Source of the DNA: Pseudonocardia sp. SCN 73-27 | GTDB taxonomy: Bacteria > Actinomycetota > Actinomycetes > Mycobacteriales > Pseudonocardiaceae | DNA length: 51,347 bases | Assembly (NCBI GenBank): GCA_001725415.1 | Contig: MEGH01000027.1 | Span: 1 to 51,347, forward strand | Direction of reading: 5' to 3' | In this document: piece by piece, positions 36,230 through 40,089 of the stretch | Layout: every line of letters starts with the position of its first letter | How positions within the stretch are numbered: position 1 is the stretch's first letter | Translations under genes and position numbers: made by a program | Notes under the pieces: generated by a model | What the model saw: the letters and a program-made list of their open reading frames with translations, nothing else | What the model was told of the DNA's origin: nothing | The model's database searches: none

Positions 36230-39133
36230 GTGCCCCGACTCCCTCGGAGCGTGCGTCCGCGCGCGCTCGTCGCCGTCGTGGCCGTCCTCGTCGTCGCCGC
36301 GGGAGTCATCCTGTTCGCGACGACGCGCGGCGGTTCGAGCGACCCCGACGTCCGCACCTCCGAACAGCGCATCGAGGTGAGCGGCGGCCCCGGGGTGGCC
36401 GCGCCGGTCAGCCTGGACACCACGCTCTACCTGCCGGCGCGCACGCCGGCGCCCGCGGTGCTGGTCGCCCACGGGTTCGGCGGCAGCAAGGCCTCCGTCG
36501 ACGCCGACGCCCGCGACCTCGCCGCCCGCGGCTACGTCGCGCTGGCCTGGTCGGCCCGCGGCTTCGGCACCAGCGGCGGGCAGATCGCGCTCGACTCCCC
36601 CGACTACGAGGTCGCCGACGCCCGCAGCCTCGTCGACTGGCTCGCCCAGCGCCCCGAGGTCGCACTCGACGGTCCCGGCGACCCCCGCGTCGGCGTCACC
36701 GGCGGCTCCTACGGCGGCGCGCTGTCGCTGCTGCTCGCGGGCTACGACAAGCGCGTCGACGCCATCGCCCCCGTCATCACCTGGAACGACCTCGGGCAGG
36801 CGCTCTTCCCCGACGCCACCGGCACGCCGCCGCCGGGCGACACCCCCGCGGCGCGGACCTTCGGCACCGACGGCGTGTTCAAGCGCGGCTGGGCGGGCGT
36901 GTTCTTCTCCGCCGGGGCGTCCCCTGCCCAGTCGGCGCAGGCGTCCGTCCTGGGTCGCGGGAACACCGGCTCCGACGACGCGGCCGCCGGTCAGGGCACC
37001 ACCGGGCAGGGCCAGGACGCGCCGCCCGTCGCGACCGACCCCGGTCAGGGCGTGACGCCGCAGACTCCGCCGGGCATCCCGCTGACCTGCGGACGCTTCA
37101 CTGCCCAGGTGTGCGCCGCCTACACCGAGGCCGCCACCACCGGGCGCGTCTCCCCCGCGACGGCCGACCTGCTGCGCCGCTCCTCGCCGGTGTCGGTCAC
37201 CGACAGGATCACCGCGCCGACGCTTCTCGTCCAGGGCGAGCAGGACACCCTGTTCGGCCTCGACCAGGCCGACGCCAACGCCCGCCAGATCGCGGCGGCG
37301 GGCGGCACCGTGCGCGTCGTCTGGTACGCGGGCGGCCACGACGGCGGCGCCCCCGGCACCTCGGTGCGCGACGACATCGCCGAGTGGTTCGACCACTACC
37401 TGATGCGGACGGGCCCCGCACCCTCCTCCGGGTTCGCCTACGCCGTGCAGAGCGGCGTCCGCGCGGGCGGCTCCACCCCGACCGGGCGCACCATCGTCGC
37501 CGACGCCTACCCGGGCCTGCCCGGCAACGCTCCCGTGACCGCGCAGCGACTGCGGCTCACCGGCGCCCCGCAGGACGTCGTGAACCCGGCTGGCGGCAAC
37601 CCGGCCGCGATCACGTCGCTACCCGGGCTGGGCGGGTCGCTCGGCAGCCTCGCGGGCCGGCTCTCGGCGTTCACCTCGGAGCTGCCCGGCCAGTCGGCGC
37701 AGTTCCGCACCGACCCCTTCCCCGAGTCGACGACGCTCGCCGGCTCCAGCCGTGTCACGCTGACCGTGGCGCGTTCGCCGGGCCAGCCGGCGGGGTCCGA
37801 GGCTGTGCTGTTCGGCAAGATCTCCACTCTGTCCGCCGATGGACGTCGCGTCCTGCTCGGCTCGTCGGTCGCGCCGATGCGCGTGCCCGTCCCCGTCGAC
37901 GGCTCGCCCACGACCGTCACGGTCACGCTGCCCGCGGTCGTCGCGCCCGTGCAGGTCGGCGACCGGCTCCTCGTCTCGATCAGCACCACCGACCAGGGCT
38001 ACGCACCCGCGAACGACCCCGCCGTGTGGCGGATCGGGCTCGCGGACACCGGCGCCCCGGCCACCCTCACGGTGCCGTCGGTAGCGGGGCGGGCCGTCAC
38101 CGAGAACACCGTGCCGATCGGCTACCTCATCGGCATCGGCGTCATCCTCGTCGGCGCGCTGCTGGCCTGGGTCGTCGCGCGGGCGCTGCGCCGCCGCCGG
38201 CTCGCCCCCGCGCCCGACCCGGCCGCTCTCCCGCTGGAGATCCACGGCCTCGCCAAGACGTACAAGGGCGGGTTCACCGCCGTGCGCGACGTGTCGTTCG
38301 AGGTGCGGCCCGGCATGGTGCTGGGCCTGCTCGGCCCCAACGGCGCCGGCAAGACCACGGTGCTGCGGATGCTGATGGGCCTCATCCGGCCCAGCGCGGG
38401 CACCATGCGCGCCTTCGGCGAACCCATCGGCCCCGGCGCGCCCGTACTGGCCCGGATCGGCGCGTTCGTCGAGGGACCCGGCTTCCTGCCGCACCTCTCC
38501 GGTGCCGACAACCTGCGGCTCTACTGGGCCGCGACAGGCCGCCCGCCCGCCGACGCCCACGTCGAGGACGCACTCGCCATCGCCGGGCTCGGGTCGTCGG
38601 TCGACCGCAAGGTCGGCGCCTACAGCCAGGGCATGCGCCAGCGGCTCGCCATCGCCCAGGCCATGCTCGGCCTGCCCGAGCTGCTGCTGCTCGACGAACC
38701 CACCAACGGGCTCGACCCGCCCCAGATCCACGCGATGCGCGAGGTCCTGCGCCGCTACGCCGCCGACGGCCGCACCGTCCTGGTGTCGAGCCACCTGCTG
38801 GCCGAGGTGGAGCAGACCTGCACGCACGTCGTCGTCATGCACAAGGGGCTCGTCGTCGCCGACGGCACCGTCGACGACATCATCGCCGGTGGCGGCGCAG
38901 CGAGCTTCACCGTCGACGAGCCCGCGCAGGCCGCCGAGGTCCTGACGGGCCTCGACGGGGTGCGCGACGTCGCCGTCGACGGCACGCTCGTGCACGCGGA
39001 GCTCAACGGCATGCCGCGCGCCGCGGCCGTGCAGGCACTCGTGACCGCCGGGGTGGGCGTGCAGTCCGCCGGACCCCGGCGCCGGCTGGAGGACGCGTTC
39101 CTGCAGCTCGTCGGAGAGGACGCGACACCGTGA
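36230..39133 (+). CDS. Fusion of an extracytoplasmic alpha/beta hydrolase (S15/CocE-like) with an ABC transporter ATPase
   Basis: 967 residues in one uninterrupted frame. Order: basic N-terminus and signal anchor (about 11-31); an S15/X-Pro-dipeptidyl-peptidase-like hydrolase (about 45-620) with nucleophile Ser160 in GGSYGG, likely Asp339 in QGEQDTLFG and His370 in GGHDGG, and a beta-rich C-terminal part; a second transmembrane helix (about 629-651) followed by RRRRLAP; then a full ABC ATPase (about 669-960). The ATPase has Walker A GPNGAGKTT (702-710), signature YSQGMRQR (798-805), Walker B LLLLDEPTNGLDP from 818 and His855 in VSSHLL. Positive charges at both cytoplasmic ends put the hydrolase outside and the ATPase inside. 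GTGA overlap couples it to the permease gene. Such fusions may exist in other actinobacteria; no function has been shown to my knowledge. Confidence 0.9.
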   Translation: MPRLPRSVRPRALVAVVAVLVVAAGVILFATTRGGSSDPDVRTSEQRIEVSGGPGVAAPVSLDTTLYLPARTPAPAVLVAHGFGGSKASVDADARDLAARGYVALAWSARGFGTSGGQIALDSPDYEVADARSLVDWLAQRPEVALDGPGDPRVGVTGGSYGGALSLLLAGYDKRVDAIAPVITWNDLGQALFPDATGTPPPGDTPAARTFGTDGVFKRGWAGVFFSAGASPAQSAQASVLGRGNTGSDDAAAGQGTTGQGQDAPPVATDPGQGVTPQTPPGIPLTCGRFTAQVCAAYTEAATTGRVSPATADLLRRSSPVSVTDRITAPTLLVQGEQDTLFGLDQADANARQIAAAGGTVRVVWYAGGHDGGAPGTSVRDDIAEWFDHYLMRTGPAPSSGFAYAVQSGVRAGGSTPTGRTIVADAYPGLPGNAPVTAQRLRLTGAPQDVVNPAGGNPAAITSLPGLGGSLGSLAGRLSAFTSELPGQSAQFRTDPFPESTTLAGSSRVTLTVARSPGQPAGSEAVLFGKISTLSADGRRVLLGSSVAPMRVPVPVDGSPTTVTVTLPAVVAPVQVGDRLLVSISTTDQGYAPANDPAVWRIGLADTGAPATLTVPSVAGRAVTENTVPIGYLIGIGVILVGALLAWVVARALRRRRLAPAPDPAALPLEIHGLAKTYKGGFTAVRDVSFEVRPGMVLGLLGPNGAGKTTVLRMLMGLIRPSAGTMRAFGEPIGPGAPVLARIGAFVEGPGFLPHLSGADNLRLYWAATGRPPADAHVEDALAIAGLGSSVDRKVGAYSQGMRQRLAIAQAMLGLPELLLLDEPTNGLDPPQIHAMREVLRRYAADGRTVLVSSHLLAEVEQTCTHVVVMHKGLVVADGTVDDIIAGGGAASFTVDEPAQAAEVLTGLDGVRDVAVDGTLVHAELNGMPRAAAVQALVTAGVGVQSAGPRRRLEDAFLQLVGEDATP

Positions 39134-40089
39134 CCACGCCCGATCCCCGCACGAACGGCTCCGTCCCGGCCACCGGGACCGCGGTGGATACCGCGATCCA
39201 GGCCGCCGAGGCGTCGACGCGGCGCGGGCATGTCGGCGGGTTCTCCGCACCCGTGCCCACCGAGCCCTACGACGTCGCCCGCACCATGCCGCTGCGCATC
39301 GAGCTGATCCGCCAGCTCAAGCGCCGCCGAACCCAGGTCGCGTTCGCGCTCGTGGCACTGCTGCCCGTGATCCTCTGGATCGCGTTCAGCCTCGCCTCCG
39401 ACGGCCCCCCGGGCGCCACGGTCAACCTCGTCGACCTCGCCAAGGACAGCGCCGCCAACTTCGCGGTGTTCGCCCTGTTCGCGTCGGCGAGCTTTCTGCT
39501 CGTCGTCGTGGTGGCGCTGTTCTTCGGCGACACCGTCGCGTCCGAGGCGAGCTGGTCGAGCCTGCGCTACCTGCTGGCCGCGCCGATCCCCCGGGCCCGG
39601 CTGCTGCGGCAGAAGGCCGTCGTCGCGGCCGGGCTGTCGCTGGCCGCCCTGCTGCTCCTGCCCGTGGTGTCGCTGATCGTCGGCTCCATCGCCTACGGCC
39701 CCGACGCCCTGGTGTCCCCGACCGGAGAGTCGCTGTCGTTCTGGACGGCCGTCGGCCGCGTGCTGCTGGGCGCGATCTACCTGGCGCTGTCCATGAGCTG
39801 GGTCGCCGCGCTGGCGATGCTGCTGTCGGTGAGCACCGACGCCCCGCTGGGGGCCGTCGGCGGTGCCGTGATGACGTCGATCGTCTCCCAGATCCTCGAC
39901 CAGATCACCGCGCTCGAGGACCTGCGGAACTACCTGCCGACGCACTACGCCAACGCATGGTCCGACCTGCTGTCGAGCACGATCGACTGGGGCGACATGA
40001 CCCGCGGGGTGTTCTCGTCGTTCTGCTACGCCGCCGTGTTCGGCGCCTTCGCGGTGTGGCGGTTCCAGCGCAAGGACATCACCAGCTGA
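39130..40089 (+). CDS. ABC-2-type transporter permease
   Basis: 319-residue membrane protein with about six hydrophobic segments: VAFALVALLPVILWIAFSLA, a segment near residue 110 (FASASFLLVVVVALFF), then AALLLLPVVSLIVGSIAYG and later helices. A long Gly/Pro-rich cytoplasmic N-terminus of about 55 residues comes first. The region after helix 2 (DTVASEASWSSLRYLLAAP) is typical of ABC-2 permeases paired with DrrA/CcmA-type ATPases. The GTG at 39130 overlaps the stop of the fusion gene by two bases (GTGA), so the two proteins almost surely form one transporter. Substrate unknown. Confidence 0.9.
   Translation: MTTPDPRTNGSVPATGTAVDTAIQAAEASTRRGHVGGFSAPVPTEPYDVARTMPLRIELIRQLKRRRTQVAFALVALLPVILWIAFSLASDGPPGATVNLVDLAKDSAANFAVFALFASASFLLVVVVALFFGDTVASEASWSSLRYLLAAPIPRARLLRQKAVVAAGLSLAALLLLPVVSLIVGSIAYGPDALVSPTGESLSFWTAVGRVLLGAIYLALSMSWVAALAMLLSVSTDAPLGAVGGAVMTSIVSQILDQITALEDLRNYLPTHYANAWSDLLSSTIDWGDMTRGVFSSFCYAAVFGAFAVWRFQRKDITS

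Follow-up and report, generated by a model that had tools for sequence, protein, structure and literature searches.

Several described systems come close to one part or another of the locus considered here. PCAT exporters carry a protease and a transporter in one chain, the peptidase being a cysteine C39 domain that lies inside the cell. NosDFY has a type V ATP-binding cassette (ABC) core, NosF and NosY, and a periplasmic component, NosD, which is a separate protein and not a hydrolase. The mycobacterial efflux pump Rv1217c/Rv1218c shares the type V fold and has no hydrolase domain, and the solved chains of PaL lipase and cocaine esterase (CocE/NonD family), in which an alpha/beta hydrolase is followed by a jelly roll, have no ABC ATPase. 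Here we describe a locus of Pseudonocardia sp. SCN 73-27 (assembly GCA_001725415.1, contig MEGH01000027.1, positions 1 to 51,347 of the forward strand, referred to in full as the window) where a serine hydrolase and an ABC ATPase are encoded in a single frame, directly followed by an ABC-2 permease gene. The gene pair is retained across many actinobacterial families. The explanation that we favour, with a probability of about 0.4, is that the two genes encode a type V ABC exporter whose cargo is acylated and whose exit carries a tethered esterase.

The fusion gene and its permease

The fusion gene (36230-39133, + strand, as are all features below) starts with GTG and encodes 967 residues; its frame could be extended upstream by three residues at most before a stop codon is met. 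A first membrane helix (residues 8-33; 36251-36328), preceded by basic residues, anchors an alpha/beta hydrolase domain (about residues 37-400; 36338-37429). The latter contains the nucleophile Ser160 in the motif GGSYGG (36707-36709), the acid Asp339 (37244-37246) and the base His370 (37337-37339). A jelly roll of the PepX_C type (PF08530; about residues 401-620; 37430-38089), whose strands are visible in the AlphaFold2 model, leads to a second membrane helix (residues 630-654; 38117-38191) followed by basic residues; both helices appear in the model and in hydropathy profiles. The rest of the chain is an ABC ATPase with a C-terminal subdomain (PF00005; residues 665-965; 38222-39124), recognized by its fold matches and by the Walker A, signature, Walker B, D-loop and H-loop motifs, all of which are present. 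The permease (319 residues; 39130-40089) starts inside the stop codon of the fusion gene, as the preliminary description had it: in the overlap GTGA, the GTG start occupies 39130-39132 and the TGA stop 39131-39133.

Pfam finds Peptidase_S15 (residues 60-343), PepX_C (482-597; 32.9 bits against a cut-off of 22.5) and ABC_tran (686-826) in the fusion protein, each above its gathering score. The model of the fusion protein, built from 77 aligned sequences, has a mean predicted local distance difference test (pLDDT) score of 87.7, falling below 50 in an insert of the hydrolase domain (residues 234-276) and in short stretches; the permease model scores 87.9.

With an alpha/beta hydrolase fold, a Ser-Asp-His triad and a C-terminal jelly roll, the outer part is a CocE/S15 hydrolase, and the ABC-2 fold of the permease and the full motif set of the ATPase make the remainder a type V (ABC-2/ABCG-like) ABC system. 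The earlier label "S15-like" holds at the superfamily level: the best solved folds for the outer part are PaL lipase (8yzn), which we take to be of Pseudomonas origin, and cocaine esterase, with X-prolyl dipeptidase close behind; PaL outscores the peptidase fold by a clear margin. The likeness to PaL and cocaine esterase covers the whole outer domain at about 20% identity (18-24%). The permease fold is nearest to NosY and ABCG2, with Rv1217c and PmtD among its other solved relatives; the ATPase fold is nearest to several type V ATPases, including NosF. In the comparison with Rv1217c/Rv1218c the ATPase aligns along its full length, and the permease match is to a part of a chain of more than 500 residues. 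Unlike in NosDFY, the outer component is a hydrolase, and two additional helices connect it to the ATPase within one chain; no NosD match was found among the window neighbours scanned. In comparison with PCAT exporters, which likewise join an enzyme, there a protease, to a transporter, the fusion has a serine hydrolase that is predicted to lie outside; the fusion protein has no Pfam match to a C39 peptidase domain.

Coding signal, spread and conservation

The fusion could have come from a sequencing or assembly error, and this was rejected because, of 121 loci from many assemblies, that of the window among them, 115 hold both domains in one frame, although the two locus sets pooled into the 121 may overlap in some species. 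Third-position G+C content is 0.86-1.0 across all segments of the gene, and since it remains at 1.0 over the second helix and the linker, the hydrolase-ATPase junction is coding. The ratio of nonsynonymous to synonymous substitution rates, measured against three relatives, lies between about 0.01 and 0.38 in each of the three domains, hydrolase, jelly roll and ATPase. The six loci that lack the single-frame pair are either cut by contig ends (L109, L145 and L170) or are other hydrolases without an ABC domain (L102, L105 and L106), which entered the set through the hydrolase search. In a congener draft (83% complete; G030:C44:60162-61975) the hydrolase part lies in two overlapping frames, either a draft error or a broken gene.

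A permease gene follows on the same strand in 112 of 114 fused genes (one further fused locus, L085, was overlooked in the neighbour analysis), and the two exceptions, L108 and L115, end at a contig edge. The four-base overlap recurs in 59 of the 112, a count that, like the starts, depends on a home-made gene caller (at least 60 codons). The outer part is matched in 51 of 60 genomes near that of the window: its own genome, 34 of 35 congeners and 16 of the 24 remaining genomes, which belong to the same order. In a phylum sample, with three candidates scored per genome, 34 of 396 genomes have an outer-part match at E ≤1e-30, some of them standalone hydrolases. Among at least 529 relatives, the 80 that score best are all Actinomycetota, from 26 named genera, with 61 in Pseudonocardiaceae. 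A phylum-wide search with the ATPase (five candidates scored per genome) returned only the window and missed a known homologue (G049), so absence from that search is uninformative.

RefSeq already lists one homologue, generically named: a plasmid-borne Tsukamurella protein of 791 residues ("alpha/beta fold hydrolase") adjoining an "ABC transporter permease"; the alignment spans query residues 481-897, that is, jelly roll and ATPase. Its plasmid location indicates that the system is also mobile. The system was thus not new to databases. The preliminary description had considered it a candidate for an undescribed system, and no published study of a hydrolase-ATPase fusion was found in a literature search that lacked most subscription papers.

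Conservation was examined in 111 sequences including that of the window, three fused rows shorter than 820 residues having been removed beforehand. Ser160 and Asp339 are kept in all 111 and His370 in 110, so that the triad proposed earlier is indeed conserved. Walker A is kept in 111/111. Cys287 and Cys295 (37088-37114) are each kept in 110/111, and a disulfide between them is possible. The two-helix topology is also borne out: the second helix is hydrophobic in 111/111, and the first is found in 98/111 with called starts, some N-termini having been trimmed by the gene caller, or in 110/110 under the lax test of extending frames upstream to a stop. The basic residues before the first helix and after the second would place the hydrolase outside the cell. 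This predicted position is favoured by two homologous standalone hydrolases: L102 carries wall-binding CWB2 repeats, and the 573-residue L105 can be aligned to 299 of the 331 catalytic-domain columns.

Unfused kin and evolutionary history

A phylum-wide search with the permease uncovered a second, more distant family. The gene order of 20 regions was read by eye: 15 are sister systems, two (L221 and L222) are unfused intermediates, two more (L237 and L238) are fused, and the last is L235. The sister systems, ABC-2 systems of Actinomycetota, are the closest large group of kin found (ATPase 38-52% and permease 30-36% identical to the fused system). Unlike in the fused system, their ATPase chain has no hydrolase and they have a separate LolA/RseB-like partner, one branch having a lipase-like neighbouring gene in addition. 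The LolA/RseB-like gene precedes the ATPase gene in all 15 sister regions (in L224 as a fragment only). Fourteen of these proteins, 334-495 residues long, were aligned into a profile that matches LolA and MucB structures at E of about 0.003; it matched 15 of the 20 regions, 14 of them being its own building rows. At E ≤0.05, 11 of the 14 proteins match MucB/RseB and five DUF2092. LolA/RseB folds bind lipids or lipoproteins.

The genome of the window itself has two sister systems, L219 and L220. In L220 (G000:C26:6000-22000) the LolA/RseB-like protein, ATPase, permease and a tail-to-tail lipase-like hydrolase are found at 6515-10172. Relatives of the L220 branch have a lipase-like gene on the opposite strand near the permease, meaning a match in the roughly 1.5 kb of flank retrieved, at 22 of 30 loci, as do L223 and L233 from another family; none was seen at L246 and L250, which are of the same branch as L220. 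In Pfam these neighbours match Lipase_2 (L223, L233), palmitoyl-thioesterase (L223), and DUF915 and PGAP1 (L220). In three Actinomycetospora loci (L128, L137 and L159, about 1100-9700) a LolA-like operon is located upstream at a distance of some 1.5 kb from the fused gene, the two being separated by a TerC-family gene; as a single genus is concerned, this proximity may reflect one event.

Fusion may have arisen once, which is favoured but not proven. Rooting the permease tree with the sister systems gathers all 36 fused members, together with the long branch L235, in one starred clade (98/93) that excludes L221 and L222, which are unfused. The ATPase tree also sets the sisters apart (100/100); against a single origin, it splits the fused ATPases (four changes) and joins the fused L099 to L221 and L222 (96/89). 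More weight was given to the permease tree, the outgroup rows of the ATPase tree being poor fragments. L235 has one frame of 600 residues (7084-8886) made up of a membrane helix, an ATPase and a permease, and most simply it lost the hydrolase. Identities of hydrolase, ATPase and permease co-vary over 5995 pairs (r 0.85-0.89), with a hydrolase-ATPase correlation of 0.41 given the permease. This is as expected of a jointly inherited unit, and shared ancestry alone can suffice to explain it.

Possible functions

On the architecture, conservation, predicted folds and permease linkage that are observed, we infer transport, its direction, an acyl substrate and a coupling of enzyme to pump as follows. 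The core would consist of two permease chains and two ATPase domains, as the fold suggests, and each ATPase chain would hold an esterase on the outer face through its two extra predicted helices. Driven by ATP, an acylated cargo that is most likely lipid-like would reach the outer leaflet or the surface, and the tethered esterase would cleave or transfer an acyl ester while this cargo emerges. Fusion would fix the ratio of enzyme to motor at 1:1 and keep the enzyme at the exit. An acylated or lipid-like cargo is suggested for this ABC clade because there are two separate esterase or lipase links in addition to the LolA/RseB-like proteins; the tethering suggests that the fused enzyme works on the cargo of its own pump. 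The proposal in the preliminary description of outer cleavage or acyl transfer coupled to ATP-driven transport thus stands in outline, since it agrees with a core of type V and with the lipid-handling partners seen in the closest relatives that lack the fusion, with the sidedness predicted. It had also offered a peptide or a wall precursor as cargo, and nothing specific speaks for either.

Several observations weigh against an exporter with a tethered esterase. In L235 ATPase and permease persist without the hydrolase. The sisters that have a lipase are not the fused systems, so the lipase link reaches the fused system by analogy, and a LolA-like gene occurs in only 3 of 121 fused loci, those of Actinomycetospora. 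The LolA/RseB assignment is itself weak for single proteins because only four of nine matched anything at E 0.001, and one alone (to DUF2092) exceeded the cut-off. The CocE fold includes peptidases, and no third gene cluster is found in more than 59 of the 121 fused loci.

The alternative that survives best, though we consider it rather unlikely, is an enzyme gated by ATP without transport, in which the ABC core transmits force across the membrane and so switches or positions the outer hydrolase. NosFY with NosD and FtsEX with wall hydrolases are thought to pass force through the membrane in this way. The closeness of the permease to NosY and of the ATPase to NosF fits such a scheme, as does the second helix, which in the model links the hydrolase directly to the ATPase and would be a ready mechanical connection. 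However, the other solved relatives of the permease fold (ABCG2, Rv1217c and PmtD) are pumps, and the unfused L221, L222 and L235 retain ATPase and permease with no hydrolase to gate.

An exporter of peptides with built-in processing, whose S15-like domain would trim the exported peptide, for example of a leader, is unlikely. The clear lead of PaL over the peptidase fold counts against it, and so does the want of a shared third gene that could encode the peptide, although genes shorter than 60 codons were not called and a short precursor gene would escape. In the literature nothing was found on S15 enzymes in leader processing of ribosomally synthesized and post-translationally modified peptides, and in the accessible part of a review of their leader proteases the word "S15" does not occur (PMC10885120).

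A detoxification pump that expels xenobiotic or antibiotic esters and hydrolyses them outside is no better placed. It would suit the structurally close efflux pump Rv1217c/Rv1218c, the patchier distribution outside the genus and the Tsukamurella plasmid. DrrA (TIGR01188) is also the best NCBIfam model among the matches listed, though at 165.8 bits it stays far below its curated cut-off of 312.45, and none of the 25 matches listed of 187 reaches its own. Presence in nearly all congeners and the parallel divergence of the three domains fit steady inheritance better than a resistance gene.

Finally, a scavenger whose outer enzyme releases a product from extracellular esters for import by the ABC core would agree with the frequent secretion of CocE-like enzymes for nutrients and with import by some type V-like proteins such as ABCA4, but is very improbable, since bacterial ABC-2 systems as a rule export and no binding-protein-like gene is found among the window neighbours scanned.

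Neighbourhood and upstream region

A TerC-family membrane protein gene, mostly divergent, adjoins the fused gene upstream in 59 of 121 loci (for example L128:4536-5576), and a DPP-IV-like gene is present in 48. Both mostly track the genus of the window and Pseudonocardiaceae/Pseudonocardiales, DPP-IV-like genes also occurring at L077, L105 and L163. Because they follow genus and family lines, they are read as synteny, and a function based on these neighbours was set aside. In the window, a DUF6918 protein (40240-40689; 192 bits) comes directly after the permease and does not rank among the 30 neighbour clusters seen most often.

Upstream of the fused gene, a SigE-like motif is found in 11 of 110 loci and a SigR-like motif in four, counts that have no chance control. 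Eight of the 11 are from Geodermatophilaceae (L165, L168, L174, L179, L180, L182, L184 and L186) and have GGAAC-N15-18-GTT within 300 bases of the fused gene, which could be an envelope-stress promoter or could reflect shared ancestry. Elsewhere in the window, ARAGORN predicts a tRNA-Asp of 94 bases (10655-10748), longer than is usual for a tRNA.

Implications

The envelopes of actinobacteria are unusual, and much about the transport and processing of their lipids beyond the membrane still awaits explanation. A conserved gene pair of an esterase-type enzyme and a pump offers a testable device, and the sister systems, with their LolA/RseB-like protein, pump and lipase-like neighbour, widen it to a larger, possibly lipid-handling clade. 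An exporter with a tethered esterase may, as a doubtful but possible extension, be one polypeptide through which ATP hydrolysis in the cytoplasm is coupled to an acyl-ester reaction at the outer side of the membrane. A single machine would then flip a molecule and remove its acyl group or pass that group on, as a conserved device for remodelling envelope lipids or lipoproteins in Actinomycetota, parallel to the LolA/lipase sisters. It would be an unusual case of an outer-face enzyme covalently joined to the motor chain of an ABC system.

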